Positions 2,865 to 31,375 of a DNA stretch of 33,409 nucleotides are shown one piece after another; the stretch's first letter is position 1, and each line of letters opens with the position of its first letter. A program made the position numbers and the translations under genes. The DNA comes from Deltaproteobacteria bacterium. GTDB taxonomy: Bacteria > Myxococcota_A > Polyangia > JAAYKL01. Below the pieces are notes generated by a model. That model worked only from the letters and a program-made list of their open reading frames with translations, searched no databases and was not told the DNA's origin. The stretch spans positions 1 through 33,409 of the forward strand of contig JAFGQN010000092.1 of the NCBI GenBank assembly GCA_016935665.1. Direction: 5' to 3'.

Positions 2865-3015
2865 CGTGCTCTGCCTTTCATTGGAAACAGTGGGAATCAA
2901 CCCGCCTGTATATCGAGTATAAAACATTTCAAAGTGTATCTCCACTGGCAAAGCAGGGGCCACTTTTCCTTTATTTTTGATGTTGCTTCCTCCGGGTGCA
3001 TTCCGAAAACAACTC

Positions 3016-3043
3016 AAAAATATCCATTCGTCTGGCTATGGAT
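3016..3043 (-). terminator. Possible weak terminator downstream of glmS
   Basis: On the minus strand an ATCCAT/ATGGAT stem (3038-3043 and 3022-3027) is followed by A and five T (3020-3016), 55 nt after the glmS stop codon. The stem is only 6 bp and AT-rich, so this is a tentative call. Confidence 0.3.
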
Positions 3044-11820: not shown

Positions 11821-12738
11821 ATGACCATCAGCATGGACCAGTCCGTCGACCTGTATCTCGGCTATCTTGCCCACCAGCGGCGGTGCAGTGACAACACAAT
11901 AAAAACATATAGTGGCGTCCTATGTGAGTTTATTACCTATATTTTTGAACTTCGACAGATAGATTCCCCGGAGCGGGTTGACCCAATGATGCTGCGTGCT
12001 TACCTTGGGCACCTGTATGAGCGGAACGAGGCGGCAAGCATTGCAAAAAAACTGGCCGCATTAAGAAGTTTTTTTGCGTTCCTGAAGAAAAAAGGGCTGG
12101 TGTCGCAGAATCCAGCGATGACAGTAAAGACGCCGCGTGTGAAACGGAAGTTGCCGCATTTTGTGTCTGTTGATGAAGCAGTTCGTCTGGCAGAGCTGGG
12201 ATGGGAAGAAACGCCATTGGGATTTCGGGATCGGACAATAGTTGAGCTGCTGTATGGAAGTGGACTGCGCGTGAGTGAGCTGGTGTCAATCAACATGGAT
12301 ACCATCGATGTGGCCACCCGGCAGATGCGAATAGTGGGTAAGGGGAATAAAGAGAGAGTTGTCCCGGTTGGTTCCCATGCGTTGGACGCCGTCCAGCGCT
12401 GGATGACCCATCGCGCGAAGATTGTGCGAAAGGGTGGGCAAATTGACGAGAAGGCATTGTTTATTAACCGGGACGGGGAGCGGTTGAATGTTCGGAGTGT
12501 CCAGCGAATGATTAAGAAAAGAGGCATTTTGGCAGGAACCAGAGAGTCGCTTCATCCTCATGCATTGCGACACTCTTTTGCCACTCACCTGCTGGATGGC
12601 GGCGCGGATTTGCGGATTATTCAGGAACTTCTGGGCCATGCCAGTCTTTCCACCACACAGAAGTATACCCACGTGAGTATTGATGGATTAAGTCGGGTGT
12701 ACGACGAAGCGCATCCGTTGGCGAAACGGAAACATTAA
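11821..12738 (+). CDS. xerC: Tyrosine recombinase XerC
   Basis: 305 residues. With XerD it resolves chromosome dimers at dif during division. All catalytic residues are visible: Arg150 (GSGLRVSEL), Lys174 (GKGNKER), His247 and Arg250 (HALRHSF), His273 (LLGHAS) and nucleophile Tyr282 (KYTHVS). The N-terminal SAM-like core-binding domain covers about 5-90. The position between topA and hslV is that of xerC (codV) in the conserved topA-xerC-hslVU cluster, which favours XerC over XerD. Only AGGT, 11 nt away, precedes the ATG. A TAGAAT at 11809-11814 would put a transcript start almost on the ATG, so a leaderless mRNA is possible but unproven. Confidence 0.93.
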
Positions 12739-12766
12739 ATTCTTAAATGGAATTTGGAGAAATCGA

Positions 12767-13324
12767 ATGAATGACGACGACAGAAAAATCAGAAGTACGA
12801 CAATTATTACGGTGAGAAAAGGAAAAGAAGTGGCTGTTGCCGGCGATGGACAGGTTTCCATGGGATCTACGGTTATGAAAATGTCTGCTAAAAAGGTGCG
12901 TCATCTGGCAAATGGCAAAGTGATAGCGGGTTTTGCAGGAGCCACAGCTGATGCGTTTACGCTTTTTGGACGTTTGGAAGAAAAACTTGAGGAGTTCAAC
13001 AACAATCTTCTACGCGCCGCAGTGGAATTGGCCAAGGATTGGCGCACCGACCGAATGCTGCGTCGACTCGAAGCGTTGCTGGTGGCGGTAGACAGTGAAA
13101 CATCTTTGCTGATTTCGGGCACCGGAGACGTGATTGAGCCGGAAGATGGCATTCTGGCTATTGGCTCGGGGGGAAACTTTGCACAGGCGGCAGCCAGAGC
13201 ATTGAACCGGCATACCGACCTTTCCGCCGCGGAAATCGCACGGGAAGCGTTGGACATTGCTGCGTCCATTTGTATTTACACTGGCGGGCAGGTAACCATT
13301 GAAACTCTGGAATCCAAACAATAA
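12767..13324 (+). CDS. hslV: ATP-dependent protease peptidase subunit HslV (ClpQ)
   Basis: 185 residues. HslV forms the double hexameric proteolytic core of the HslVU protease. A ten-residue propeptide [10 protein letters not shown] precedes the mature TTIITVRKG start, giving Thr11 as the N-terminal nucleophile after processing. AVAGDGQVS and AIGSGGNFA, with the Gly-rich loop, are typical of the family. TTGGAGA lies about 8 nt before the ATG. It sits 28 nt after xerC and 12 nt before hslU, an operon arrangement. Most characterised HslV proteins expose the threonine after Met removal or a short propeptide, so a ten-residue leader is within the known range. Confidence 0.97.
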
Positions 13325-13336
13325 GGGGCGTTGCAG

Positions 13337-14722
13337 ATGGCGAAAGTAACCAATTTATTAGCGGGCACATCGTTGACACCTAGAGAAATTGTCGGCGAAC
13401 TGGACAAATACATTGTAGGACAGCATGCAGCCAAACGCGCAGTGGCGATTGCACTTCGAAACAGATGGCGTCGCCAGCAGGTGCCTGCAGAACTTCGGGA
13501 GGAAATTTCCCCCAAGAATATTATTATGATTGGCCCAACCGGCGTTGGGAAAACCGAAATCGCCAGGCGTTTGGCGAAACTGGCACAGGCGCCATTTGTT
13601 AAGGTGGAAGCATCAAAATTTACCGAAGTGGGATACGTGGGTAGAGACGTGGATTCCATCGTACGCGATCTGGTGGAGGCGTCCGTGTCGCTGGTGAAAA
13701 AAGAGGAGGAGGAACGTGTCGCTGCCAAAGCTGAGCAGTCTGCCCGAGAGAAAGTATTTCACAAAATCGTGGAAGAAGAAACGCCACGGCCCAAACCTGC
13801 GGCGCCGTATGAATTGCCGGATCCCACCCCTGCGGCCCCGGATACCAGCCATCTGAAAGCACAGTTCGAAAAAGGTGAATTTGACGAACGCTATGTGGAG
13901 ATGGACGTGCCGGATAACGCCATGCCAATGGTGGAGGTGTTTAACATGGCGGGACTGGATGAAGTGAATCTGCGGGATATGTTTCAAAGTCTTCCGGGAT
14001 TTCGGGGGCGCAAAAAGAGCCGCAAGTTGAAAGTGAAAGAAGCTATCGAGATTTATCGCGCCATGGAATCGGAAAAACTGATTGATATGGACGCCGTGCA
14101 GCATGAAGGTCGCACACGCGCTGAGCAAAGCGGGATTGTGTTCATTGACGAAATCGACAAGGTTGTGGGGAAGAGCCGCGGAGGATCGGGGAACGGTCCG
14201 GACGTTTCCCGGGAAGGGGTGCAGCGGGATTTGCTTCCGCTGGTGGAGGGCTCAACCGTCAATACAAAATATGGACCGGTAAAAACCGATCACATGCTTT
14301 TTATTGCAGCTGGCGCGTTTCATGTAAGCAAGCCGTCTGATATGGTTCCCGAGCTGCAGGGGCGGTTTCCCATCCGTGTGGAGTTGACTTCCCTTGGGGC
14401 GGATGATTTTGTGCGCATTTTAACAGAACCCAAAAATGCACTGTTGAAACAATACACGGCCCTGATGCAAACCGAACAGGTGGAGCTGATTTTTAAAGAT
14501 GATGCCATCGGTGCCATCGCTAAGGTGGGTGCGTCCGCCAATAATACACTTGAAAACATTGGTGCACGAAGACTTCATACTATTATGGAGAAACTGCTTG
14601 ATGATATATCGTTTTCTGCTTCTGAAAAAAGTGGGCAGAAGATTGAGATAGACGCTGCAAAAGTTCACCAGGCATTGAGCGATATTCTGAAAAACGAGGA
14701 CCTTTCAAGGTTCGTTCTTTAG
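13337..14722 (+). CDS. hslU: ATP-dependent protease ATPase subunit HslU (ClpY)
   Basis: 461 residues from the ATG with AAGGGG upstream; an in-frame TTG lies two codons earlier. HslU is the AAA+ unfoldase that feeds substrates to HslV. Walker A is GPTGVGKT (66-73) and Walker B is [10 protein letters not shown]. The I-domain occupies roughly 110-240 and contains a Pro/Ala-rich stretch ([19 protein letters not shown]). GRFPIRVEL and the conserved [18 protein letters not shown] follow. The C-terminus EDLSRFVL is the tail that inserts between HslV subunits. Complete and expected to be active. Confidence 0.98.
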
Positions 14723-14908
14723 CGGTTGCACCGTTTCTTACCAGGTAAAAGTGCTTGCAGGTCGCAGTCGATGAGTCGTCTGGCTGGACCAGGCGAGCCG
14801 CCGGTGAGTCCTTTTATATATTGATTTAGAAAATCGATGTGTCTTTCGTAAAAATATGTATTATGCTTACTGTCCAAGTTGTTGAATTTTCAGTCAGAAG
14901 GCAAACCC
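14723..14908. other. Intergenic region with an 8-bp GC-rich hairpin before the chaperone operon
   Basis: A stem TCGTCTGG (14776-14783) / CCAGGCGA (14789-14796), with one G-U pair and a five-base loop, lies 54 nt after the hslU stop. The next T-run (14813-14816) is too far away for a classic terminator. Towards the J-protein gene there is a TATTAT at 14859-14864 without a convincing -35. I saw no CIRCE heat-shock operator. Confidence 0.35.
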
Positions 14909-16534
14909 ATGGACTTCGTAGCAGAGATACATATGATCCCCACACTGCGTTCAGGGGATGCACTTCAAGTTGCCACAAACGGTGTTGAAAAATTATTACT
15001 GAATGCAATCGATGGAAAACGGGATGTTCAGCAGCTCGCGGAGCAGTGCGGCATTGAACAGGATATGGTCTGTCGTATGGTTGGCAGATTATTGCAGGCG
15101 GGCGTATTGGATGTGGCAATGGGAGGACAAAATAATGACCGTTCAGATGTGGAAAACCCGGTGAAGGATGATGTTCATTTGATTTCTGAACCAAAGATAA
15201 GCAGAGAAGATGAGACACCCCAGAACCTGTCTGAAGACGCGGTAACAGAGATGTATGAGAAATTGGAGAATTCGAACTGTTACGAAATACTGGGTGTGCC
15301 TCCGATTGCCCAGCGTTCGGAGATACGCGCTGCGTATTTTGCTCTTTCGAAAAAGTTTCATCCGGATACACATTTTCGCCAAGGCAGTGATGAGCTGAAA
15401 AAAAAGTTGAGTTATATATTCGACAAGCTTACCAACGCATACGATACGTTGTCCGGGAAATCCAAGCGTAGTGCGTATGATGAATCGATTGCCAGCGAAA
15501 TTGAACTCTGGAAAATGGAGCAGTCGATTCGTCGGTCCCTACAGCCCCAACAACAGCGCAATGATAGTTCTGCCAACACGGAGGATTCTGCGCACGGAAG
15601 GCCCCGAAGGGGAACTGAAGCGGTGTCGGTGAATGTTTCGAAACCGGAAGCGGATAATTCGGTGCGTTACTCCATTCCCCAACGCGTCTCCGCAACAAGT
15701 TACCGACGTACTCCGGTTCAGGACAAGGTGTCCGTTGGCGCGGGCGCACGAATCTCCAGGGGGCCGGTGACTCGCTCGTCATACTTGTCCGAACCGGGGT
15801 CTGCGCCATCCTTCAACGGTGCTGTGTCGGTGAAAGTGGAACGTTCGCCTTTGCAATCGCAGCCGACATCAGCGGACCCGCCGCAGGAAAGCGAAGCGTC
15901 ATCGAAGGCGGTGGAGCGTCGCCGGCAGCAATGGAAGCGTGAACGATTAAAAAAGGTGCTGGGCGTGGGGGGGGGCATTCCGGCTACGGCGCCGGACCGT
16001 CGCACCGGTGGTGATATGGGGTCTCAAAGTGAAGTGTATTTGCTGGATCACGCGCGAATCGCCATTGAAAAACATGAGTTTGGGATGGCGATTCAATTTG
16101 TTCAGGAAGTATTGAGAAGAGACGGTGAAAATTCGAATGCAAGTCAGTTGTTGCGGCAGGCGCAATCTGGTAAAGTCAAATCCGATATAAACGAATTGGT
16201 AAGACGAGGACGTTTCGAGCAAAGCAGCGGAAATGTGTCCGCAGCGCTGGAACTTTACGAAAGAGCATTTAAACTAGACATCAGGAATGTGGATGCCAAA
16301 TATCACGTTTCAGTCGCCTTGCTGGAGATGCGCAAGGATTTGCGCCGAGCGTTGATGCTTTGCAGGGAAATTGTGGCAATGGGTGGCAGGAAGCCTCAGT
16401 ATTTCGAGACGTTGGGTCTTCTGTATGAGCAATTGCATGACCAGGAAAGAGCTGGTGAAATGTACCGGAGGGGACTTGAGCTGGCTCCTTTGGACCGGGA
16501 ATTGAAAAAGCGACTGAAAGCTTTGTCAAAATAG
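14909..16534 (+). CDS. J-domain / TPR protein with an N-terminal winged-helix-like domain
   Basis: 541 residues from the ATG with AGAAGG 9 nt upstream. Residues about 14-72 are a small helical domain (VEKLLLNAIDGKRD, CRMVGRLLQAGVLDV). A J domain follows at about 120-195 with NCYEILGV and the HPD motif at 151-153, which stimulates Hsp70 ATPase activity. The Gly/Phe region, zinc fingers and C-terminal peptide-binding domains of DnaJ are absent. A long disordered, Arg/Ser/Pro-rich middle (about 210-350) leads to TPR-like helices (about 375-541, e.g. GNVSAALELYERAFKLD and AGEMYRRGLELAPLD). It lies 30 nt before the dnaK-like gene and is its likely co-chaperone. The TPRs probably recruit a specific client. 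Confidence 0.85.
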   Translation: MDFVAEIHMIPTLRSGDALQVATNGVEKLLLNAIDGKRDVQQLAEQCGIEQDMVCRMVGRLLQAGVLDVAMGGQNNDRSDVENPVKDDVHLISEPKISREDETPQNLSEDAVTEMYEKLENSNCYEILGVPPIAQRSEIRAAYFALSKKFHPDTHFRQGSDELKKKLSYIFDKLTNAYDTLSGKSKRSAYDESIASEIELWKMEQSIRRSLQPQQQRNDSSANTEDSAHGRPRRGTEAVSVNVSKPEADNSVRYSIPQRVSATSYRRTPVQDKVSVGAGARISRGPVTRSSYLSEPGSAPSFNGAVSVKVERSPLQSQPTSADPPQESEASSKAVERRRQQWKRERLKKVLGVGGGIPATAPDRRTGGDMGSQSEVYLLDHARIAIEKHEFGMAIQFVQEVLRRDGENSNASQLLRQAQSGKVKSDINELVRRGRFEQSSGNVSAALELYERAFKLDIRNVDAKYHVSVALLEMRKDLRRALMLCREIVAMGGRKPQYFETLGLLYEQLHDQERAGEMYRRGLELAPLDRELKKRLKALSK

Positions 16535-16564
16535 CGGTTAGGGAATGTAGAAAAGGAACGGTTT

Positions 16565-18385
16565 ATGGGAAAAGTAATTGGAATCGATTTGGGAACAACA
16601 AATTCATGTGTAGCGGTGGTAGAGGGGGATACGCCGACTGTGATACCCAATCGCGGCGGATATAAAACAACGCCTTCCATGGTTGCCATAACAGAAGCAG
16701 AGAAACGTCTGGTGGGACACATCGCCAAGCGGCAGGCGATTACCAACGCTGAAAACACCGTTTTTGCAGCAAAGCGCCTGATTGGAAGAAATTGGGAGTC
16801 CGCGCCGGTGATGGCAGCGAAGGAAACCGCACCGTATAAAGTGGTGGAAGGTCCACATGGGGATGTTCGAATAGATTTGCGTGGAAAATTGTATTCTGTA
16901 CCTGAAATTTCGGCAATGATTCTGGTGGAAATGAAGGTGATTGCCGAGGATTATCTGGGAGAGCCGGTGGATCAGGCGGTCGTCACAGTACCCGCCTATT
17001 TTAACGACAATCAGCGCCAGGCGACCCGGGATGCGGGAACGATTGCCGGGTTGGAAGTAATACGGATTATTAATGAGCCCACATCAGCGGCATTGTCATA
17101 CGGTTTTGGCAAAAAAATGGACAGACTGGTGGCGGTGTACGATTTGGGGGGCGGCACATTTGATATTTCCATTTTGGAGATTGGTTCGGACGAGGTATTT
17201 AAGGTCATATCCACCGCCGGAGATACGTTCCTTGGCGGTGAGGATTTCGATACGCGGATTATGGATTGGCTGGTGCAGGGGTTTCTGGATGAGCACAATG
17301 TGGATTTGCGTCAGGATCGCATGGCGCTTCAGCGACTAAAGGATGCGGCTGAAAAGGCCAAGATTGAGTTGTCCAGCCAAACCGAAGCGGAGATTAATCT
17401 GCCGTTTATCATTTCTGTTGGACAAAACGAAGCGCTTCATCTGCAGCGGACGCTTCGGCGGGAAGTGTTGGAAGAACTCTGTGAAGATCTGATTTCCCGG
17501 ACCATTGATATTTGTCAGGCAACCATCAACGAAGCGGATTTGGATTCCAGTGAAGTGGAGGAAGTGATTCTTGTAGGTGGAATGACGCGTATGCCCCTTG
17601 TGCAGCGTCGCGTGGGAGAATTTTTTGAACGAGATCCCTGCAAAGGCGTGCATCCCGATGAGGTGGTGGCGCTGGGGGCGGCAATTCAGGCGACGGCATT
17701 AACGGATGAAGCCAGTGATATGTTGCTGCTGGACGTCACACCGCATACTCTTGGAATTATGATTGCCGGTGGCCATTTTGAGGGGTTGATTCCTCAAAAT
17801 TCGACGGTTCCCACATCGCGGTCAAAGATTTTTACCACTGTGCGCGATGACCAGACTGCGGTGAAGATTCTGGTATTCCAGGGAGAAAATGAACGGGCGG
17901 AATTGAACGAGGCGTTGGGAGAATTCGTGTTGACGGGCTTGAGAAAAGCCCCCCGTGGTCAGGTGGAAATCGAAGTGATTTTTGATATTAATGCCGATGG
18001 TATTGTGAGTGTTTCCGCCAAGGATTTGGAAACAGGTATGAAGCAATCCATTACCGTGACAGCATCTTCCGGATTGACCGAGGACGAAATTCGAAAAATG
18101 GCAGAGGACAGTCAGGACTACATGGTGGACCGGCGCGCGTCAGAGGAGTTCGAAGCAGCGCGTCAGGAGGCGGAGCGACTCATCCGCGAGTTGGACCGGA
18201 TGTATGTGAAGGTTGAAAAAATGGTGACCGGATCGGAGTTTGGCAATGAAGCGCTCCTGAAAGCAAGGGATTTGATTAACACAGCAAAATCCGCGATTTC
18301 AGAAAAAAACCTGGAAAAAGTAACGGATTCGATCGAAACTCTGAAAAGGACGCAGCGCATGTTCAAAGGCGTGCTCGCGAAATAG
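16565..18385 (+). CDS. DnaK-family Hsp70 chaperone, probably a specialised paralogue
   Basis: 606 residues, AAAGGA upstream. The ATPase domain is complete: GIDLGTTNSCVAVVEG, AYFNDNQRQATRDAG, IINEPTSAALSYGFGK, VYDLGGGTFDIS, LVGGMTRMPLVQ. The substrate-binding domain (LLDVTPHTLGI..., FDINADGIVSVSAKD) is also present, with a helical lid. The protein stops at MFKGVLAK, about 30 residues short of canonical DnaK (about 638), so the flexible tail is missing. The neighbours are not grpE or dnaJ but a J-TPR protein and a TPR/winged-helix protein. This points to a dedicated Hsp70, as known for DnaK homologues involved in motility and development in Myxococcus. I cannot exclude that it is the only DnaK of the organism, so I leave the symbol empty. 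Confidence 0.93.
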   Translation: MGKVIGIDLGTTNSCVAVVEGDTPTVIPNRGGYKTTPSMVAITEAEKRLVGHIAKRQAITNAENTVFAAKRLIGRNWESAPVMAAKETAPYKVVEGPHGDVRIDLRGKLYSVPEISAMILVEMKVIAEDYLGEPVDQAVVTVPAYFNDNQRQATRDAGTIAGLEVIRIINEPTSAALSYGFGKKMDRLVAVYDLGGGTFDISILEIGSDEVFKVISTAGDTFLGGEDFDTRIMDWLVQGFLDEHNVDLRQDRMALQRLKDAAEKAKIELSSQTEAEINLPFIISVGQNEALHLQRTLRREVLEELCEDLISRTIDICQATINEADLDSSEVEEVILVGGMTRMPLVQRRVGEFFERDPCKGVHPDEVVALGAAIQATALTDEASDMLLLDVTPHTLGIMIAGGHFEGLIPQNSTVPTSRSKIFTTVRDDQTAVKILVFQGENERAELNEALGEFVLTGLRKAPRGQVEIEVIFDINADGIVSVSAKDLETGMKQSITVTASSGLTEDEIRKMAEDSQDYMVDRRASEEFEAARQEAERLIRELDRMYVKVEKMVTGSEFGNEALLKARDLINTAKSAISEKNLEKVTDSIETLKRTQRMFKGVLAK

Positions 18386-18407: not shown

Positions 18408-19604
18408 ATGACTGGTGATAAAAAGAAAGAGAACAGATGGGCGAGGGTGTTGGATGACGCTGGGCTTCTCGATGAGGTTGAGGATGCATGGGAACTGCCG
18501 GAGGGTGGGCGCCTGAACGACGGTGCAACGCTGGAGGTCCGCACCAGTGTGCCTTCGGGGCCAACAGTTCCTGTTATAGAATCAAAATCCGAGCAAAGAG
18601 TGTCCAGGGACGATGAAACACAAAAGGTTATCACGGTGATCAGTGCTGATCCGACGAGCGGTTCAGAAGAGGATACGGTGCGAGTGTCGTACGCGGATGG
18701 GGGGCGAAAGCGGGATTTGACCGGCCGTCGACCGGAACGTGGCAGTCTGCCTTTGTCGCCGGTAACACCGGATGCCATGGTTGCGGAGTCAGAGAAAAAG
18801 GACCCGGCACCGCATTCGGATACAGATCCGGGACAATTCGCTTACCATACCCGTAACAGTTGGGACCAGTACCACGATGCGAAGCAACCCGAATACGCAT
18901 CCACCATCAACGAGGATGATGGATGGGCTACGTTAATGGATGACGACCGGGATACCCGGGAGGTGCCTACATTCTCTGAACGGCCTGCGACCAACCTCGT
19001 TTCGACGGCGGATGACGAAATTGATTTGGAATTCGACATATCCAGTCCGCTGGAGCCTGGCGAGCAAAGTGCGCTTTCGTCTGAATTCAACAATGGGCGG
19101 GAACGATTTGAACGTGGCAGCGCCCCTCGTGTCTCTATTCCCGATTTGCATGGTAATTTGGATGAACCGGCCGAGGACGGGATGATAATGGATGTCCCAA
19201 TGGCCTCGATGATTCCGGAACCCATCGAGCTGACTCCACCCAGTATGCACATTCAGATGGCCGAAAAATACGACATGAACGATTTTTCCGGCGCATTGGC
19301 CATTGCAGAGAAAATTCTGGAAACGTCGCCAGATGATATTGATGCATTTCAGTATAAAAAAAGCTGTCGCGACTGGTTGCTGCAGATGTACGAATCGCGT
19401 ATTGGCGATATGGAGAACATTCCTTCGTTGATAGTGTCCACCCATGAACTGATGTGGCGAAATCTGGATGCTGCTGCCGGTTTTGTACTGTCTCGAATTG
19501 ACGGTGTCAGCTCTTATTCTGATATTCTCGATATTTCCGGAATGCCGAAATTTGAAACCTGTCGCATCCTTTTCCAACTCCTCGAAGATGGCTTGATTAA
19601 GTAA
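18408..19604 (+). CDS. Acidic protein with TPR-like helices and a C-terminal winged-helix-like domain
   Basis: 398 residues, starting 22 nt after the hsp70 gene; the ribosome site is poor (AGGCGG about 11 nt away). Not recognised as a named family. The first 280 residues are acidic and low in hydrophobics, so probably disordered. A TPR-like pair lies near 285-325 (AEKYDMNDFSGALAIAEKILETSPDD). Residues about 340-398 (LSRIDGVSSYSDIL, CRILFQLLEDGLIK) resemble the N-terminal domain of the J-protein two genes upstream. There is no signal peptide or membrane segment. I infer a cytosolic partner or client of the Hsp70/J pair. A transcription-factor role is less likely, as the wing lacks obvious basic residues. 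Confidence 0.75.
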   Translation: MTGDKKKENRWARVLDDAGLLDEVEDAWELPEGGRLNDGATLEVRTSVPSGPTVPVIESKSEQRVSRDDETQKVITVISADPTSGSEEDTVRVSYADGGRKRDLTGRRPERGSLPLSPVTPDAMVAESEKKDPAPHSDTDPGQFAYHTRNSWDQYHDAKQPEYASTINEDDGWATLMDDDRDTREVPTFSERPATNLVSTADDEIDLEFDISSPLEPGEQSALSSEFNNGRERFERGSAPRVSIPDLHGNLDEPAEDGMIMDVPMASMIPEPIELTPPSMHIQMAEKYDMNDFSGALAIAEKILETSPDDIDAFQYKKSCRDWLLQMYESRIGDMENIPSLIVSTHELMWRNLDAAAGFVLSRIDGVSSYSDILDISGMPKFETCRILFQLLEDGLIK

Positions 19605-19662
19605 TTGCGTCGGTTATCGCTACTCCACAGGTTAGTCGCGCCCATTTCATATCCGAAGAGCC

Positions 19663-20529
19663 TCACACGTATCGATATACAATAGATGACACACCTCCCA
19701 TGTATCCACTGCCAAACAGATTCACGTGATTCAGCATGTGATACAGGTTGTACATATCCATGCGATCCTGCCAACCGTTTTGCATCGGCCAGTATTCGTT
19801 GTAGGCGGCGTAAAAGTGCCCCCCAAATCGTCCGAATAGCTGGGTCATGGCAATTTCCGCTTCCCGGTGACCGAAGTATGGCGCCGGGTCGATGATAACC
19901 GGTTCGCCATTCGGCCCGGTCATGGCGTTGCCGGACCAGAGGTCTCCGTGAATGATACTGGCGTTGCCCTCTGGCTCAATGATGAACTGGTCCAGTTTTT
20001 CCAGCAGTGTTGAAAGTGATTTTCGCAATTCACGTCCCAGCTGACTCGATGCCATTTTTATTTGAGGTTCCAAACGCATTTCCCCAAAAAAGTGTACCCA
20101 GCTGTCTCGATGCTCGTTGTACTGAGGTGTGGCGCCGATAAAGTTGTCGATGTCAAATCCGAAGCGGTCGCGACGAATCGTTTGATGCATATGGGCCAGT
20201 TGACGACCAAATTGTTCAAAGTAGTCCGCTACGCGCCCACTGCTGTCAAGGAATTCAAGCAGCAGGTATTGGCTCGAATTATCGCGAAATGCCGCTATCG
20301 GAGTGGGGATGCGGGGGCCACCATCACAGACCAGCATCTTTAACCCCATGGCTTCGGCCTCAAACATTTGCGGATGTGTCAGATTGTTCTGTTTTAAAAA
20401 CAGAGTTTCTCCATTGCTGAGATGCAATGTGCCAGTGTCGTTGATGCAGCCTCCTGCCACATTTTTTTTAGCGACGACTTGCACCGACTCGCCGAACAAC
20501 GTTTGAATTTTTTTTTGCAGTGTATTCAT
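19663..20529 (-). CDS. Fructosamine-3-kinase family protein
   Basis: 288 residues from the ATG with AAAGG 8 nt upstream (usual family length about 290); the frame is open further upstream without support. The family phosphorylates the sugar of glycated proteins at O3, after which the adduct falls off. Visible: the ATP-site lysine Lys46 (LFLKQNN), the catalytic loop HGDLWSGN (His194, Asp196, Asn201), the metal-binding Asp214 in IIDPAPYFGHREAEIAM, and ENFIGATPQ-like NFIGATPQYN. Bacterial members prefer ribulosamines and erythrulosamines where tested. It is the last gene of the minus-strand operon, 53 nt after the phosphatase gene. Confidence 0.93.
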   Translation of the reverse strand: MNTLQKKIQTLFGESVQVVAKKNVAGGCINDTGTLHLSNGETLFLKQNNLTHPQMFEAEAMGLKMLVCDGGPRIPTPIAAFRDNSSQYLLLEFLDSSGRVADYFEQFGRQLAHMHQTIRRDRFGFDIDNFIGATPQYNEHRDSWVHFFGEMRLEPQIKMASSQLGRELRKSLSTLLEKLDQFIIEPEGNASIIHGDLWSGNAMTGPNGEPVIIDPAPYFGHREAEIAMTQLFGRFGGHFYAAYNEYWPMQNGWQDRMDMYNLYHMLNHVNLFGSGYMGGVSSIVYRYV

Positions 20530-20582
20530 CCCGCAACCTTTTTCCATGGGGAGAGCCCCTTGCGGTGGCTCATAAATACATA

Positions 20583-21068
20583 CTATTTTTCTGGTGAAGC
20601 GGTATCTTTCAGCAGTTGTTCGCATGTTCTTTGAACAATCTGGAACACATGTTCGAATCCATCATCCCCGCCGTAGTATGGATCGGGAACTTCCGCACCT
20701 CCAGTCGCGTTGGGATCGAAATTTCGAAACAACTGAATTTTCTGTAAATGGGCCTCGCTGGTGGCAAGCTTGCGAATGTTGGAAAGATTCTCTTTGTCCA
20801 TGGCGAGAATCATGTCGTAATCATCCAGATCCTTTTTTTTCAACTGTCTCGCACGATGTATCATTTTCACGCCGTGGCGACGAGCCGTTTCCCGCATTCG
20901 AGCGTCGGGCAATTCTCCAACATGATAGCCGATGGTGCCCGATGATTCGATTTTGAACGCATCCTCCAGAGACGCTTTTTGCACCATATCCTCAAAGACC
21001 GCATGGGCAAGCGGGGAGCGACAAATATTTCCCATGCAGACAAACATGACATTGGTTTTGGTTTTCAT
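20583..21068 (-). CDS. Low-molecular-weight protein tyrosine phosphatase
   Basis: 161 residues starting MKTKTNVMFVCMGNICRSP, with AGGAAA just upstream of the ATG. The P-loop CMGNICRS (Cys11, Arg17) is the C-x5-R signature, and the general acid is in VPDPYYGG near residue 122. The family removes phosphate from tyrosine, and some members act on sugar phosphates attached to protein amines. The adjacent fructosamine-kinase-family gene is a recurring neighbour in bacteria and suggests protein repair rather than control of capsule kinases; no tyrosine kinase or capsule gene is nearby. It is 37 nt downstream of the SGNH hydrolase gene. Confidence 0.95.
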   Translation of the reverse strand: MKTKTNVMFVCMGNICRSPLAHAVFEDMVQKASLEDAFKIESSGTIGYHVGELPDARMRETARRHGVKMIHRARQLKKKDLDDYDMILAMDKENLSNIRKLATSEAHLQKIQLFRNFDPNATGGAEVPDPYYGGDDGFEHVFQIVQRTCEQLLKDTASPEK

Positions 21069-21105
21069 ATTACTTTCCTGTAAATTTACTTTTTGGCATT
21101 TTTCG

Positions 21106-21726
21106 TCAATCCAGTGCGCTACAGATTTCCAGCAATGCGTTTGCCATGGCGCGATACCCGTTGTCATTGGGGTGAACGCCATCGGGATAATAGAGCTGAT
21201 GTAAATCGAGCTGACCATTTTTCATATGGTCGGCGATGTCGGCCACAGGACAATTGGTTTCATTCGCCACTTTGTGAATCGCTCGGTAGTAGGGGGCAAT
21301 CCCCTTTTGCTGGTCGTTTGCAAGTAGTGGCCCTGAAGTGATCAACAGCGGCAATGTGTTGCAACGGATGGCTTTTTGAACAATGGTACGGAGTGACGCC
21401 TGGTACTTCTCCACCGAAACGCCGGCGTAAAAATCGTTTATGCCAAACTGGACGGTCAGCAGAACCGTTGGATAACCAAGAAGTGCGTCTGTCCGTCTCG
21501 CCCCACCGCTCGCTGTGTCGCCACAGACGCCTGCGTTCACCGCGGTAACAGTGGCATTTTGAAATGCCTGACGGATACCGGATATAAACAAATCAAAAAA
21601 ACTGCTTGTGGCTTCCCATCCGCAGGTGAGCGAGTCTCCAAGACCGACGATGCGGACACTATTGCCTTTTGCCAGCTGTTGGCGGACATTGCTGAAATGT
21701 TTTTTGCATTTGATTTCTGCGGGCAT
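21106..21726 (-). CDS. SGNH/GDSL hydrolase, cytoplasmic
   Basis: 206 residues; GGGAGGGGG lies just before the ATG. The four blocks are complete: GLGDSLT (nucleophile Ser32), NAGVCGDTASGG (Gly69), FGINDFYAG (Asn97) and DGVHPNDNGY (Asp182, His185). These enzymes are esterases or thioesterases, related to TesA/ArpE-like lysophospholipases. The substrate cannot be told. No signal peptide is seen, unlike periplasmic TesA. It sits between argF and the phosphatase gene, with gaps of 26 and 37 nt. Confidence 0.92.
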   Translation of the reverse strand: MPAEIKCKKHFSNVRQQLAKGNSVRIVGLGDSLTCGWEATSSFFDLFISGIRQAFQNATVTAVNAGVCGDTASGGARRTDALLGYPTVLLTVQFGINDFYAGVSVEKYQASLRTIVQKAIRCNTLPLLITSGPLLANDQQKGIAPYYRAIHKVANETNCPVADIADHMKNGQLDLHQLYYPDGVHPNDNGYRAMANALLEICSALD

Positions 21727-21752
21727 CTTCCCCCTCCCGGCGAAACCGGTGT

Positions 21753-22667
21753 TCAGCCCTTGATGAGTTTGACCAGGACGGCCTTTTGTGCGTGAAGTCG
21801 ATTTTCTGCTTCATCAAACACAACGGTATTGGGTAAATCCATGACGTCCGCGGTAATCTCTCTGCCCCGTTCCGCCGGGAGACAGTGCATCACGATGACA
21901 TCTTTTTTGGCTGCATTCACCACATCCATATTGACCTGGAATTTCTGCAGTTGCGCAACTTTGGTATCGATCTGATCCTTGGCGCCCATGGATGCCCACA
22001 CATCCGTGTAGATGACGTCGGCGTCTTTGACCGCTGCCTGGGCGTCGTGGTGAATGCTTACCTCTGAAATGCCACAGGCTTTGGTTTCTTTCAGAATCGC
22101 GGCATCGGGCAGCGTCTCGGGCGACGTTCCAATGCTTAAATGCATGGGAATGCGCTGAGCTGTGCGCAGCCAGGAGTTGGTCATATTGTTGCCGTCGCCA
22201 AGATAGGTCACCTTCAAATTGTCGAAATGGCCACGTTTCTCAAGAATGGTTTGCATGTCGGCCATCAACTGGCAGGGGTGCAGCAGATCCGTGAGCATAT
22301 TTACCACCGGCACTTCTGCATGGTGCGCCAGTTCTTCCACATCACTGTGGGAAAACGTACGGATGCAAATCACCGAAAAATAGCGACTCATCACTTTGGC
22401 CACATCGTGTATGGATTCCCGTTTTCCAAGTTCGATTTCCTGGTTGGTGATGTACACGCTGCTGCCGCCCAGCTGTTGAAAACCCACTTCAAAAGAACAC
22501 CGGGTGCGCAATGATTGCTTGTGAAAAATGAGGGCGCCCACACCCCCGTTCAGGATGTTCTGGTGTTCACCCCGTTTGGTTTTCTCTTTCATTTCAATGG
22601 CCAGATGCAGCGTCTCCAGCACTTCGTCGGTTGTGAAATCGGTTATGGAAAGAAAATCTCTTTTCAT
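21753..22667 (-). CDS. argF: Ornithine carbamoyltransferase
   Basis: 304 residues, normal length. It makes citrulline from ornithine and carbamoyl phosphate in arginine synthesis. The carbamoyl-phosphate motif reads SLRTR (52-56) instead of the common STRTR, HPCQ is at 130-133, the ornithine SMG loop at 226-228 (DVWASMG) and HCLPAERG at 261-268. DGNNMTNSW is also typical. The ribosome site GAGGAG is formed by the last two sense codons of the upstream gene, whose stop is 6 nt away, so the two are probably coupled. No other arginine genes are in the window. Confidence 0.96.
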   Translation of the reverse strand: MKRDFLSITDFTTDEVLETLHLAIEMKEKTKRGEHQNILNGGVGALIFHKQSLRTRCSFEVGFQQLGGSSVYITNQEIELGKRESIHDVAKVMSRYFSVICIRTFSHSDVEELAHHAEVPVVNMLTDLLHPCQLMADMQTILEKRGHFDNLKVTYLGDGNNMTNSWLRTAQRIPMHLSIGTSPETLPDAAILKETKACGISEVSIHHDAQAAVKDADVIYTDVWASMGAKDQIDTKVAQLQKFQVNMDVVNAAKKDVIVMHCLPAERGREITADVMDLPNTVVFDEAENRLHAQKAVLVKLIKG

Positions 22668-22673
22668 GACGGC

Positions 22674-23306
22674 TTACTCCTCGGCCCCCTCTATGATGTC
22701 AATTGCTTCCTGAGCGAGCATGCCGATGGTGACCGGGGCCTCGTCTTCATCATCGTCTTCAACTTCCACTTCTCTTTTATCCTCCACGAGTTTTTTGAGA
22801 ACTTCGACAGAATCAATGTCGCTGACTGACGCGCATGCTTCAATCGCTGCATAGACCACGTCGGTTTCTTCGAGCTCAAGGAATTTGTGAATGTGAGTGG
22901 TGGCAGCGGGGTCGTCAATCCAGGCTAGAATAAACGGCATCTCCAGCGCAGCACTGCCTTTGTTTTCGAGTGCATAGTCCACGGCAGCAGCGATGGAATC
23001 CACACCGTCTTCTGTGCCAAGTGAAATAATGGCTTCACCGAAGAGGTGACGGACCTCTTCATTGGGATGGGACAATGCCCTGGCCAGCTGGAGGGGACCG
23101 TCTTCGAGGGTGCAAATCATTTCTGCCACTCGAATCATGGGCAACGGTACAGAATCGTGTTCACCGGTTTTTTCAAGCAGGGTGTCTGCCAGTCCAACCA
23201 GTGCGGCTTTCCGATCCGCTTCAGGCTGGCCGTCAAAGTCGTCCTGCAGTGTCATGATTTTGGAATCCATTTCAAGGATTTCAGACAGAATTTTTGAAGC
23301 ATTCAT
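22674..23306 (-). CDS. Acidic alpha-helical (HEAT-like) repeat protein, unknown function
   Basis: 210 residues; AAGGAGAG precedes the ATG by 8 nt. No named family recognised. The sequence is helical and rich in Glu/Asp, with HEAT-like units (LARALSHPNEEVRHLFGEAI, IHKFLELEETDVVYAAIEAC) and a very acidic stretch VEVEDDDEDEA before a last helix. No signal peptide or transmembrane segment, so cytosolic. It is the first gene of the operon leading into argF. A role as a scaffold or adaptor is only a guess from the fold. Confidence 0.8.
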   Translation of the reverse strand: MNASKILSEILEMDSKIMTLQDDFDGQPEADRKAALVGLADTLLEKTGEHDSVPLPMIRVAEMICTLEDGPLQLARALSHPNEEVRHLFGEAIISLGTEDGVDSIAAAVDYALENKGSAALEMPFILAWIDDPAATTHIHKFLELEETDVVYAAIEACASVSDIDSVEVLKKLVEDKREVEVEDDDEDEAPVTIGMLAQEAIDIIEGAEE

Positions 23307-23349
23307 TGATTTGCTCTCCTTATTGGTTACAACCTTCTGGTGCGCGTTT

Positions 23350-23379
23350 CAGACCGGCTACCTTAGCAGACTCGGTCTG
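23350..23379. promoter_or_regulatory. 7-bp inverted repeat between divergent genes
   Basis: CAGACCG (23350-23356) and CGGTCTG (23373-23379) are perfect inverted arms 16 nt apart. They lie between the helical-repeat/argF operon (minus) and the Lpt permease gene (plus), about 10 nt upstream of the permease ribosome-binding sequence. They could be an operator serving both directions or a leader hairpin. Confidence 0.35.
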
Positions 23380-23400
23380 GATTGGCGAGAAGGAATTCCT

Positions 23401-24504
23401 TTGTCATTGATGAATCATATTGACAGTTACATCACAAAAGGAGTGGTGCGCTGGTGTATGACAGCACAACTGGGTGTATCGCTAATCTTTATCGTGACAC
23501 AATTGGTTCGTTTGGCCCCTCTGTTGTCCGGTGTGACTGTAAATCGAGACGTTCTTTTAATTGTTTTATGGGCGCTGGTTCCTCTGTGGGTTTGGTCACT
23601 TACGCCGGGATTTATGCTGGCGCTGTTTATGCAAACGGGCGCCATGGCTCAAAATGGAGAGTTCACTGCAATATACAGTACTGGGATTAGCCCGCGTCGG
23701 GCCATGCGTTGGCCCTTGATACTGGGAATTGTACTGTTTATATTGCATGTGCCTGTCTCTCTGGTGATAGCACCCATGGCTCAACAACGAATCGCGAACT
23801 CGTTGAAATCGCTTCTGGCAGAGGCAATCCCAAAGGCTCTGGAGAGCGGCACTTTTTCATATCCCGTTGAGGGACTTGTATTTTTTGCCGATGGGCGTAT
23901 GGGCCGTGGTCATTTTGCGGGAGTATATCTCGAATTTCAGCAGGGTTTGCAGCGACGCGTTCTCGTTTCTGAATCTGCCCAAATCGACGTTTTGGTACAG
24001 GATGAGGTTTTGCGGTTTGATATGTTTAACGGCGAGCTGTTTGACATATCAAACCCGCTTGTTACTTTGTCTTTTGAACAGTTGACAGTTCGCCTCCCGG
24101 TCCATTCGGCAGTTCAGTCCAGTATGGGGCTTTTTCACAGTTTTACAGCTGTTTCAACCGGTGGGTTGTATCAATCTGTTCATTCTGGCACGGCTTCACC
24201 TGGAGAGACTTTTGTTTTTTTTGACCGGTTGCTCAGTGCACCTGTTTTTCTTTTAACAATTATCATGTCCGCTTTTCTGGCGTTTTCCGTCCCCTGGAAA
24301 CACAGGTATGTGGCCGCTGTCATCGCAGTATTTATTTTTTTTATGCTGTATTTTGCAGCTCGCGTTGCACAGGTTTCAATGGCGTCGGGAATGATGGGCC
24401 CAATTGTCGCGGCCGGATTGCCTATGATGTTGATTTTGTGTTTCGTTGTTTTATGGTTTGTCATTGGATTGTTTGCCACGCGTTTTAAAAAAAGGTTCTA
24501 TTGA
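23401..24504 (+). CDS. LptF/LptG-family permease (YjgP/YjgQ)
   Basis: 367 residues from the TTG at 23401, which has AAGGA 6 nt upstream; the ATG at 23410 is the alternative (15 nt from the same site). The frame is open further upstream, but that part is antisense to another gene. The family forms the membrane part of the LptB2FG ABC transporter, which pulls LPS out of the inner membrane. The layout fits: two N-terminal membrane segments (GVSLIFIVTQLVRL, LLIVLWALVPLWVW), a third near ILGIVLFILHVPVSL, a periplasmic beta-jellyroll domain (about 130-260), then three C-terminal segments. GEFTAIYSTGISPRR is the coupling-helix region. LptF or LptG cannot be chosen. No lptB or second permease gene is in view. 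Confidence 0.88.
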   Translation: MSLMNHIDSYITKGVVRWCMTAQLGVSLIFIVTQLVRLAPLLSGVTVNRDVLLIVLWALVPLWVWSLTPGFMLALFMQTGAMAQNGEFTAIYSTGISPRRAMRWPLILGIVLFILHVPVSLVIAPMAQQRIANSLKSLLAEAIPKALESGTFSYPVEGLVFFADGRMGRGHFAGVYLEFQQGLQRRVLVSESAQIDVLVQDEVLRFDMFNGELFDISNPLVTLSFEQLTVRLPVHSAVQSSMGLFHSFTAVSTGGLYQSVHSGTASPGETFVFFDRLLSAPVFLLTIIMSAFLAFSVPWKHRYVAAVIAVFIFFMLYFAARVAQVSMASGMMGPIVAAGLPMMLILCFVVLWFVIGLFATRFKKRFY

Positions 24505-27857: not shown

Positions 27858-30833
27858 ATGGACTATTTTTGGAAAAGATTGATTCGCATGCGACTGATGT
27901 CTGCGATTATCCTCTCATTACCGGGTGTCTTTTTATGCGTTTGGTATTCCAGCAGTGCGGTGCTGAAACTGTTAAGCTATCAGACGGCGCTCGGTGAGAA
28001 AGTGGCGATGGATTTTGAGCTGTTCCAGGTGTACTTACACGACATTCTCCAACGGGATGTCAACTGGATTGTGTACAGTGACGAACCCGAAAAATCGACT
28101 ATCGATCTGTTCAATCTGAATATTTCCAAAGGGGACTTGATAACCATGTATTCGCAGGCGGATAAAGACGATGATCGTCTGTACGTTCCCGCGAGATTAT
28201 GTTTGAACTATCAGGTGCAGTGTCGCGATGTGGAGGTGCGTCTTCGCGGCAGTCGCCACTGGCATCTTTTATCCAGAAAAAAATCCCTGAAAATACGCGT
28301 CACCGATGGGAAGCCCTTTCACGGACACGAGGTGTTCAATCTGGTGAATCAGGTATCGCCCATGGTGGTGGGACAAAAAGTGATTTCGGACGTGGCCGAT
28401 GAAAATGGCGTGATGGTGCCCACGTACTCATTTGTGCGATTGCTGTTGAATGGCGAAGATTTGGGGGTGCTGCACTTTCAGGCACAGCCGGACGATTCCC
28501 TGTTCCGCCGCAAGGCCATCATGTTTTCCGATTTTTATTCCGGTGACCTGAACAAAAAAGCCGACCCGATGGCATTGTGGAATGATGTGGCGTTGTGGAA
28601 CAAAGTTACCTCTCGTTTGCACTCCAACAAGCACGATGTGCAGCGTCTGAAGGAATTTTTGCACCATATTACTCAATCGTCGTATCATGATTTTGCCCGT
28701 TACGCCCGGCAGCATGTTAACTTTGAAGCGTTTGCCGCTTTCGAAGCCATTGATGTGGTGTGTGGTATTGAACAGCATGGTTTTCGCGAAAATCAGAAAC
28801 TGTATTTCGACCCCTATATCGGCAGCTGGGTGCCGGTAGCCTGGGATTTGGCAGGGTTTAAACACAGCGGTGTGATTAATCGCGTTGAAAATCCCATTAC
28901 TATTCGACTCAAGATGATTCCGGAATACCGCGCCATGCGCAACAAGGCTGTCTGGGAACTGCTCAATGGCGACGCCAACACCAATCGCATTCGCAAGCGT
29001 GCTCGAAAACAGCTGGAGAAAATTATTCCGGAACTCACCAATGACAGACTCTTTTCGGCGTACAAACTGCTGCCGAAAGTGAATGAATTTGCGTTTAAAA
29101 TGTTGCGCCCCATGGACATGGACAAACTGAATCTGGTGCTTGAATCGGAGATGTTGTCCTATGAACGCCGTCATGCATTTTTGCTCAATCAGCTTCAAAA
29201 AAACGAGTTTTATTATCAGCGCGGCGCGACAATGGAAGTTGCGCCCACACCAGTTGAGCCTGTATCTGCCGAGCCATCTGACTCAGATGTCACGGAAAGT
29301 GGCGAATTATCGGCGGGGGATACCGCCGCTTCTGATGCCTCGGTAGACGTCGCAAATGGCGAGACTGCTGAAGAAGATGCGCCAAAACCGGAAGCAGGCG
29401 TTTTATACCGCACGCCACTGGACATTATTGTGGCTGGCGAGACAGGCGTGACGTTAAGAGATATTTCGGTGGCGTTCGATACAGACTGCTGGCATCCCGT
29501 CTGGAAGATACTGATGGGGAATACGGTGGTTGCAACCGCAGACAAATCCACCTCGGCAACGTTTACCTTTGATGAAACTCTCTATGCGGCAGTGGCATTG
29601 ACTGAGCGAATGAAGGGGGATGCGGATTTGACGCGAATCGAGGTGGCAACCGTTCCAACCAGTTATCCGTTAATGATGGAATCCAGTTGCAAACCAGGCA
29701 ATGTGGATATTTTTGCCACCCATGAAATAACCCAAAATCGGATTCGGGCACAGAAACCGGACGCAGAAGTACTGGCGATGCTGCCTAAAACCTTTCCATC
29801 TGAACAGGACGTGCCGCAATTCAGTGTTGGTGTTCTGAGTCCCCATCCCCAAACAATGACCACGCCTGAGATTAAACAGATTCAATTGGGGCCGGGGATT
29901 GTCAAAGTGGTCAAAACACGCGTTTTCAACGAATATACACACGTCACCATTGCGCCGGGAACCACTTTCGAAATGGGCAACAATGTTTCCATGCTGTTTA
30001 AAGGCCAGGTGATGATGAACGGCGTCGCGGGCAACCCCATTGTGTTCAAACAAAGCGGTGAGAAGCCCTGGGGCGGCGTGGCGCTGCAGGGCCGCAACAC
30101 AGCCGGTTCGATTATATCCAATGTACAGCTGGAGGATGGGAGCAACATTGTTGGTCAGCCTGTTGTATATACATCCATGCTGAACCTCCACAATAGTGAG
30201 AATATAATTGTGCAGGGGTGCAAAATCCGCAACAACCATGGGCTTTGGGATGCCTTCCACGGAGCGTATGTGAAAAACCTGAAGATTGCTGATCTGACTG
30301 TGGAAAATGTGACGATGGACGCAGTGGATATTGAATTTTGTACGGCGGATATCACGCGGTTGTTTGTGAGGAAAACCGGCGACGATGGGTTGGATTTGAT
30401 GGATTCCGAGGTTCGGTTCAGCGATAGCGTGATCATTGGATGCAAACAGCACGGCATCTCCGCAGGAGAGAACAGTTGGTTGAAAGCCACCGATTTTCTG
30501 GTGGCAAGGAACGTCAATGGCGTGTTTGGCAAGGACGCTTCGAAAATTGAGATTGGGACGGGGCTGTTGATGCGAAACGAGACCGGTGTTCGTGTCGGCA
30601 AGCCAACCGGTTTGTATAGTGGTGACGTCGAAGTTGCGGCCAGTTCGCTCTATATATTGGGGGCAAAGAAACTGGTCACTCGAGCGGACCGTAAAAAAAA
30701 TCGCCTGGATGACGGGAAGATTCTTTTCGGATTTGTGGACGACAGACCCCTGCGTCATTTCTTTTCGGACGTCATTGATATCAGTGGCCCCGAGGCCCTG
30801 GATGAGTGGCTGTCAGAGAGAGAGGTTCATTGA
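27858..30833 (+). CDS. CotH-kinase-like domain fused to a right-handed beta-helix, membrane-anchored
   Basis: 991 residues. An N-terminal membrane helix (LMSAIILSLPGVFLCVWYSSS) anchors it, so most lies outside the cytoplasm. Residues about 95-450 are CotH-like: VEVRLRGSRHWHLLSRKKSLKIRV near 125-148, AFEAIDVVCGIEQHG, ENQKLYFDP, and VPVAWDLAGF near 330. Family members with kinase activity usually show WD-x-D; here the second Asp is Ala. A Pro/Glu/Ala/Ser-rich linker (about 459-510) and a beta-sandwich-like segment lead to a beta-helix (about 690-930) with repeated short strands (VKNLKIADLTVENVTMDAVDIE, GLDLMDSEVRFSDSVIIGC). CotH of Bacillus phosphorylates spore-coat proteins. The stop overlaps the next start by 1 nt (TGATG). 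Confidence 0.85.
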   Translation: MDYFWKRLIRMRLMSAIILSLPGVFLCVWYSSSAVLKLLSYQTALGEKVAMDFELFQVYLHDILQRDVNWIVYSDEPEKSTIDLFNLNISKGDLITMYSQADKDDDRLYVPARLCLNYQVQCRDVEVRLRGSRHWHLLSRKKSLKIRVTDGKPFHGHEVFNLVNQVSPMVVGQKVISDVADENGVMVPTYSFVRLLLNGEDLGVLHFQAQPDDSLFRRKAIMFSDFYSGDLNKKADPMALWNDVALWNKVTSRLHSNKHDVQRLKEFLHHITQSSYHDFARYARQHVNFEAFAAFEAIDVVCGIEQHGFRENQKLYFDPYIGSWVPVAWDLAGFKHSGVINRVENPITIRLKMIPEYRAMRNKAVWELLNGDANTNRIRKRARKQLEKIIPELTNDRLFSAYKLLPKVNEFAFKMLRPMDMDKLNLVLESEMLSYERRHAFLLNQLQKNEFYYQRGATMEVAPTPVEPVSAEPSDSDVTESGELSAGDTAASDASVDVANGETAEEDAPKPEAGVLYRTPLDIIVAGETGVTLRDISVAFDTDCWHPVWKILMGNTVVATADKSTSATFTFDETLYAAVALTERMKGDADLTRIEVATVPTSYPLMMESSCKPGNVDIFATHEITQNRIRAQKPDAEVLAMLPKTFPSEQDVPQFSVGVLSPHPQTMTTPEIKQIQLGPGIVKVVKTRVFNEYTHVTIAPGTTFEMGNNVSMLFKGQVMMNGVAGNPIVFKQSGEKPWGGVALQGRNTAGSIISNVQLEDGSNIVGQPVVYTSMLNLHNSENIIVQGCKIRNNHGLWDAFHGAYVKNLKIADLTVENVTMDAVDIEFCTADITRLFVRKTGDDGLDLMDSEVRFSDSVIIGCKQHGISAGENSWLKATDFLVARNVNGVFGKDASKIEIGTGLLMRNETGVRVGKPTGLYSGDVEVAASSLYILGAKKLVTRADRKKNRLDDGKILFGFVDDRPLRHFFSDVIDISGPEALDEWLSEREVH

Positions 30834-31375
30834 TGAAGCAAAGGTTTTCCCCCACACCGGGCTTTTGGTTGCTGATGGGAACATCATTGGCGGTATTGAT
30901 ATTTTTTATCTGGGGATTTTCCACGCCCAGGCTGGATCGGATATGGGAATTGGAGGAAGGGTTGAAGACCGGGCGTGTGACACAGTTATCCCGGTCCGAG
31001 AAAAACACATTTTACGATGTGTTCGAGGACTACCCCGATTATCTCGAAGAACTGGCGGGACGGCGCGGAATCGATTTGATGAGCTCCAATTCCGATGGCT
31101 TGTCGTTGACGGACAAACTGGTGCTGATTCGTAAGGCTGCTTTAAGTGATTGCGGAAATTTCGTTTTGGATGTGAGCGGTGAACAATCGGAATTCCCCAT
31201 CATCTTCAGTGTTCAGGGACGCAGTTGGCAAAAAGAAGTGGAGGTGAAGGTCAGTGGGCGCAATACAGTCTTGATGCCCAAAGACGTGCTGGTTCCGGAA
31301 TTCATCGAGGTCGCTCGAAAAAATAATAATGGGCAAATCGGCAATGTCGATGTGAAAGTCAGGTTTTGTGAATAA
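30833..31375 (+). CDS. Single-pass membrane protein of the CotH-VTC-DUF4956 operon, unknown family
   Basis: 180 residues. Not recognised. One N-terminal transmembrane helix (FWLLMGTSLAVLIFFIWGF) is followed by a soluble domain of about 145 residues, presumably periplasmic. The latter half looks like beta strands (CGNFVLDVSGEQSEFPIIFSVQG, WQKEVEVKVSG, VDVKVRF). Two cysteines (in SDCGNF and at the C-terminus, RFCE) might form a disulfide. The ATG overlaps the CotH stop (TGATG) and its own stop overlaps the VTC start (TAATG), so expression is tied to both neighbours. It may bridge the CotH-fusion protein and the cytosolic VTC/DUF4956 pair. Confidence 0.82.
   Translation: MKQRFSPTPGFWLLMGTSLAVLIFFIWGFSTPRLDRIWELEEGLKTGRVTQLSRSEKNTFYDVFEDYPDYLEELAGRRGIDLMSSNSDGLSLTDKLVLIRKAALSDCGNFVLDVSGEQSEFPIIFSVQGRSWQKEVEVKVSGRNTVLMPKDVLVPEFIEVARKNNNGQIGNVDVKVRFCE

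Follow-up and report, generated by a model that had tools for sequence, protein, structure and literature searches.

A low-molecular-weight phosphatase gene and a fructosamine-3-kinase-family gene form a conserved pair, putatively a protein deglycation module, in a deltaproteobacterium

A gene of the low-molecular-weight tyrosine phosphatase (LMW-PTP) family and a gene of the fructosamine-3-kinase (FN3K) family lie next to each other in the window, the whole stretch of 33,409 nucleotides of DNA analyzed. Each gene has an open frame in which the mapped catalytic residues are preserved, and the evolutionary linkage between the two is strong. The pair probably makes up a protein-repair (deglycation) module for damage caused by ribose 5-phosphate and erythrose 4-phosphate, a reading drawn from the sequences to which we assign a probability of about 0.78. 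According to this scheme, lysine side chains would be modified spontaneously by the two sugar phosphates, yielding the phosphorylated ketoamines ribulosamine 5-phosphate and erythrulosamine 4-phosphate; the LMW-PTP-family phosphatase would take off the terminal phosphate of the ketoamine; the FN3K-family kinase would then use ATP to phosphorylate the ribulosamine or erythrulosamine at carbon 3; and this 3-phosphate would break down spontaneously, freeing the lysine. We infer the identity of the substrate, the order of the steps, and the action on proteins in the source organism. The genes and the residues discussed below are as follows.

20583..21068, minus strand: LMW-PTP-family phosphatase, 161 aa, proposed ribulosamine-5-/erythrulosamine-4-phosphatase (PF01451, 149.8 bits)
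21015..21038, minus strand: phosphatase P-loop C11-MGNICR17-S18 (from the sequence)
20682..20684, minus strand: phosphatase Asp129 in the DPYYG loop (D129 invariant in 21 rows)
19663..20529, minus strand: FN3K-family kinase, 288 aa, proposed ribulosamine/erythrulosamine 3-kinase (PF03881, 285.4 bits)
20443..20454, minus strand: kinase P-loop G26-G27-C28-I29 (by eye, I29 = human I25 and C28 = human Cys24)
19927..19950, minus strand: kinase catalytic loop HGDLWSGN, D196 = human D217 and W198 = human W219

A sequence-only reading had placed an FN3K-family gene directly behind an LMW-PTP gene. Its coordinates proved exact in our own check, both Pfam families were confirmed, and the phosphatase stop is separated from the kinase ATG by 53 nt, the kinase being downstream on the same strand. 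The phosphatase gene is immediately upstream of the kinase gene in the same orientation, which is how an FN3K/LMW-PTP pair is defined here, a definition reportedly going back to Gemayel and colleagues. Longer open frames containing these genes were the input of the Pfam scans. Plausible Shine-Dalgarno sequences, identified by eye, precede the phosphatase gene (AGGA, 21076-21079) and the kinase gene (AAAGG, 20537-20541). The kinase open frame runs upstream as far as 20625; the ATG at 20529 was taken as the start because it follows a good ribosome-binding stretch and agrees with the match ends in relatives of the same genus.

The phosphatase exceeds by far the cut-off of PF01451 (LMWPc; 149.8 vs. 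23.2 bits). Two LMWPc matches were found in its own genome, the window gene (150.6 bits) and a gene on another contig (63.6 bits). Among solved structures the window phosphatase comes closest to class-I LMW-PTPs (yeast 1d1p, 128 bits; vertebrate chains; YfkJ; slr0328; organism names partly presumed); 2cwd, which we take to come from Thermus thermophilus, is of the same family and scores 106.1 bits. Scores are 58.4 bits with Wzb (2fek), 36.7 bits at most with YwlE, and only 68.2 of 243 and 67.2 of 247 bits with the Wzb-type NCBIfam models. These scores leave out both a Wzb-type capsule phosphatase and a YwlE-type arginine phosphatase as the nearest class, class alone not revealing function. The marks of class-I LMW-PTPs are all there, namely the CX5RS P-loop, the Asp of DPYYG, and a closer likeness to eukaryotic-type LMW-PTPs than to Wzb or YwlE. 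Residues C11, G13, N14, I15, C16, R17 and S18 are invariant in the 21-row alignment, as is D129. The P-loop presumably provides the nucleophile Cys and the phosphate-binding Arg, and Asp129 the expected general acid. Although it would be annotated as a tyrosine phosphatase, this protein more likely serves in protein repair. The sequence-only reading had also held that phosphatases of this type act elsewhere on ribulosamine-5-phosphates, and this agrees with a paper the title of which identifies human LMW-PTP-A as a protein-ribulosamine-5-phosphatase (Fortpied et al. 2007). The human enzyme is of the same LMW-PTP class as the window phosphatase, vertebrate LMW-PTPs being among the best solved matches; the window phosphatase differs in coming from a bacterium and in having its gene next to one for FN3K.

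The kinase, the single FN3K match in its genome, covers positions 3-283 of the 288 of the PF03881 profile (Fructosamin_kin; 285.4 bits, cut-off 22.4). An aminoglycoside phosphotransferase was ruled out, PF01636 scoring 38.2 bits vs. 285.4 for FN3K. The closest solved chains are a plant protein-ribulosamine 3-kinase (6oid, 205.6 bits), 3f7w (132.6 bits) and human FN3K (128.4 bits). When a profile of 29 relatives was used, 3f7w, a bacterial putative FN3K, moved slightly ahead of 6oid (256.8 vs. 254.5 bits), the two being about level. The chloroplastic plant enzyme, eukaryotic unlike the window kinase, has GGCIN, HGDLWSGN and the C-terminal LYHxLNHxNLFGSGY in common with it. In human FN3K (chains 9cx8 and 8ue1), I25, D217 and W219 are essential, D217 being the catalytic base (PMC13223202), and all three are matched in the window kinase; a passage of PMC11754801 gives Cys24 as the P-loop Cys of the human protein. 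The marks of the FN3K family are all present, HGDLW, the DPA Asp (D214) and the P-loop Ile (I29, by eye). In the 29-row alignment G26 and G27 are invariant, I29 is nearly so, and D196 and W198 are shared by all 29 rows; the C28 position is Cys in 7 of 29, Asp in most others. Additional mapped positions are G132, D214, F232, N267, H268 and F272, and human H291 is replaced by L271.

Human FN3K also acts on fructosamines. Five positions distinguish fructosamine from ribulosamine kinases in vertebrates. At human positions 260, 284 and 291 the window kinase has Y, H and L vs. F, N and H of the human enzyme; Y240 (position 260) and H264 (position 284) are of the ribulosamine type, and three of the five positions are uninformative. 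Position 179 was given no weight, since the paper prints M179L and the human chain has L there. The two ribulosamine-type residues are no family-wide mark, as each occurs in 9 of 29 rows only. A substrate preference read from the five vertebrate positions was set aside as mostly uninformative. The kinase is proposed to be a ribulosamine/erythrulosamine 3-kinase, and many bacterial FN3K homologues are ribulosamine/erythrulosamine 3-kinases according to the title of an earlier paper (Gemayel et al. 2007, FEBS J 274:4360).

The two genes close a run of five minus-strand genes (HEAT-repeat protein, ornithine carbamoyltransferase, GDSL hydrolase, LMW-PTP, FN3K). The other members of the run, and a further gene of the window mentioned below, are:

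22674..23306, minus strand: HEAT-repeat protein, first of the run (PF13646, 32.4 bits)
21753..22667, minus strand: ornithine carbamoyltransferase (NF001986, 397.1 bits, cut-off 306)
21106..21726, minus strand: SGNH/GDSL hydrolase (PF13472, 96.6 bits)
3098-4927: SIS-domain protein with a glutamine amidotransferase domain, GlmS-like (Pfam)

In 14-kb stretches from two genomes of the same genus, the neighbours found in the window are kept on both sides of the pair. The HEAT, ornithine carbamoyltransferase and GDSL genes are matched beside the pair in both of these stretches, and in none of three from other genera of the family (G004, G005, G008), where only phosphatase and kinase match side by side; the G004 stretch yields, beyond the pair, one weak aminotransferase match (24% identity). 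In a fourth genus (G010) phosphatase and kinase lie on separate contigs, away from any other window gene. A larger functional unit including the carbamoyltransferase, the GDSL hydrolase and the HEAT protein was therefore discarded, its members matching in same-genus stretches only. The conserved unit is the phosphatase-kinase pair, without the GDSL hydrolase, the ornithine carbamoyltransferase, and the HEAT protein.

Searches of the window with Rfam (gathering thresholds) and for tRNAs gave zero hits. Scanning of the 19550-23500 interval for promoters and terminators gave 2 and 2 sites, vs. 3.6 and 4.6 on average after shuffling. A porin, a sialate-esterase-type protein and the GlmS-like SIS/amidotransferase protein are also encoded in the window, none adjoining the pair. 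Genes whose names we infer as tyrosine recombinase, HslV-like, HslU-like, DnaJ-TPR and Hsp70 are in a row on the plus strand (11821-18385), making up a protein-quality-control neighbourhood near the repair pair; both same-genus stretches have matches to Hsp70 and DnaJ-TPR, and one of them to HslU. A CotH-kinase protein, a protein without Pfam match, a VTC-domain protein and a DUF4956 protein are similarly in a row at 27858-32842. Further genes encode a 987-aa protein with a peptidase C25 domain at the C-terminus (5404-8367) and a 670-aa protein in which a PA14 domain accompanies five DUF4215 stretches (1005-3017).

Recurrence of the pair was monitored in 96 genomes (the source genome and 95 relatives). 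PF03881 matched 39 of these; leaving out G045 (20.7 bits, partial) and partial second matches near 20 bits, 38 FN3K genomes remain, the source genome included. A class-I PTP gene is directly upstream of the kinase gene, on the same strand and in one order, in 32 of the 38 (G094, with a kinase match broken into three, and G022, where the kinase is split over two contigs, were counted as adjacent). The genes are apart in five (G010, G055, G076, G091 and G037; in G055 they are 17 kb apart on one contig), and in G065 the kinase is cut by the contig start. Adjacency of the pair is far beyond chance. A strong class-I PTP is found in 37 of the 38 FN3K genomes vs. 13 of the 58 others (Fisher p = 2.7e-14, relatedness ignored, with the line for strong matches, 95 bits, set after the list was seen). 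In five of the 13 genomes with PTP only (G063, G043, G035, G019, G023) the scores are just 96.6 to 119.2 bits, and these PTPs may belong to another subgroup. As 13 genomes devoid of FN3K have a strong LMW-PTP, the link of the phosphatase to the kinase is not a strict one outside the family. Within the family of the source organism, seven of 14 genomes have both genes and seven have neither (completeness 71 to 96 per cent). A mirror comparison gave r = 0.80 over 42 pairs (2 of 44 were dropped for length), with 0 of 2000 permutations as high, and carries little weight because species relatedness is still in it. One TGA was observed inside the FN3K match of a relative (L007, G005:C124).

A wider scan of contigs found at least 585 stretches encoding an FN3K relative, of which the best 80 were kept. 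Among these best 80 of at least 585 loci, 12 have a class-I PTP in the same orientation no more than 400 bases away, and they spread over seven or more higher groups. The PTP is upstream in 11, four from Bacteroidota, two each from Spirochaetes and Planctomycetes, and one each from Balneolales, Sumerlaeota and Chloroflexi. At one locus of the same 80, from a gammaproteobacterium (L123), the class-I LMW-PTP lies downstream of FN3K, 50 bases away. No PTP was found in the stretch taken at 68 of the best 80 loci, two of which (L067, L077) have less than 1 kb upstream, and many FN3K genes are thus without a linked phosphatase. The claim that such pairs recur in bacteria, also made in the sequence-only reading, is borne out both by these 12 loci and by the relatives.

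A second family, that of G059, was analyzed likewise; four genomes (G059, G070, G037, G065) belong both to this set and to the 96. PF03881 matched in 22 of its 30 genomes, 19 holding a real FN3K and three weak partial matches only. At 14 of the 17 loci examined among the 19, the PTP is within 160 bases upstream of the kinase, G059 being fused; it is 980 bases upstream in G101, and no PTP is present in the stretch for G037 and G065 (contig edge). In G059 (L033, G059:C2:105500-110500) phosphatase and kinase are part of one 504-aa open frame, a single assembled case. In G096, of the same genus, one stop codon separates the two, which share a frame; in G097 and G099, again of this genus, they are adjacent in different frames. 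No second PTP-FN3K fusion was found among the loci of relatives examined, the G059-family loci, or the best 80 of at least 585 loci.

Pairs of this kind appear to have been described already, and the idea is not new. LMW-PTP genes are said to occur immediately before FN3K homologues in 11 bacterial genomes; four of five bacterial homologues assayed by Gemayel and colleagues reportedly are ribulosamine/erythrulosamine 3-kinases, E. coli YniA being inactive on the substrates tested, and the LMW-PTPs, a Thermus thermophilus pair having been assayed, reportedly dephosphorylate protein ribulosamine 5-phosphates. The gene order reported for those pairs is that of the window pair, phosphatase then kinase; the window pair is from another lineage. 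None of the titles and abstracts listed in literature searches dealt with the gene pair or with a fused protein, a result of little weight as most subscription journals were outside the scope of the searches. Co-absence within the family, a pair kept without its neighbours, and one fused protein are what is added here to the known pairs.

The deglycation reading is favoured by the families and catalytic residues of the two proteins, their adjacency and co-presence, the keeping of the pair without its neighbours, the fusion, and the plant ribulosamine 3-kinase as nearest solved chain; the excess of strong PTPs in FN3K genomes, the 12 loci of the wider scan and residues Y240 and H264 were counted on the same side. 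Against it were counted the PTP-only genomes, the five genomes with the genes apart, the 68 loci of the best 80 without PTP, the uninformative positions, the slight edge of 3f7w, the eps_fam protein described below, and YniA. A different view of the same linkage, that the phosphatase is mainly a protein tyrosine phosphatase, the kinase repairing ketoamines alone and the two genes merely sharing regulation, is unlikely. It accords with a sequence which is that of an ordinary class-I LMW-PTP, with the strong LMW-PTPs of genomes lacking FN3K, and with a protein of the eps_fam (tyrosine-kinase) type in the genome, which makes a phosphotyrosine role possible; yet this protein, the sole one over the eps_fam cut-off (G000:C192:37918-38538, 210.4 bits), is encoded on a contig other than those of both LMW-PTP genes, the window gene included, and the phosphatase is bound to the kinase by their joint occurrence in the family, by the persistence of the pair where its other neighbours differ, and by the fusion. 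We take eps_fam to denote the BY-kinase type.

Considerably less probable is a catabolic or salvage role, in which the substrate of the FN3K homologue would be a small molecule, either a free sugar amine or some other metabolite, whose phosphorylated form the phosphatase would handle. FN3K falls within a wider APH-like group, to which the weak PF01636 match points, and derivatives of free lysine and of cadaverine are also substrates of bacterial FN3K homologues; however, none of the 24 Pfam-scanned window proteins was named as an uptake transporter for sugars or amino acids or as a second ketoamine kinase, and the neighbours of the pair differ in other genera of the family. FrlB/FrlD-type fructoselysine catabolism features clustered 6-kinase, deglycase and uptake genes. 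Phosphorylation by bacterial fructosamine kinases is at carbon 6 according to a passage of a 2025 review (PMC12735817). No FrlB/FrlD-type gene cluster was seen among the same 24 proteins, a search covering the window. The carbon-6 statement presumably refers to the FrlD type, a family other than FN3K. That the genes are chance neighbours with no functional relation is hardly credible, the five FN3K genomes with the genes apart being all that speaks for it, as opposed to the prevailing adjacency in one order, the co-absence in the family, and the fusion. The two-step deglycation pair put forward in the sequence-only reading is, given the families, adjacency, recurrence, co-presence and fused frame, the best supported of the explanations weighed.

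It is conceivable, and is advanced here tentatively, that the class-I LMW "tyrosine phosphatase" in this family, perhaps widely, is no signalling enzyme but a dedicated glycation-repair phosphatase, gained or lost as a unit with the kinase, at least one relative having a single bifunctional enzyme. If so, the fused protein of that relative would carry out both repair steps on one polypeptide. The pair is a clear case of an apparent tyrosine phosphatase more likely serving protein repair, and the fusion, along with the co-presence in the family, provides simple material for testing the two-step repair of ribose-5-phosphate damage in bacteria.
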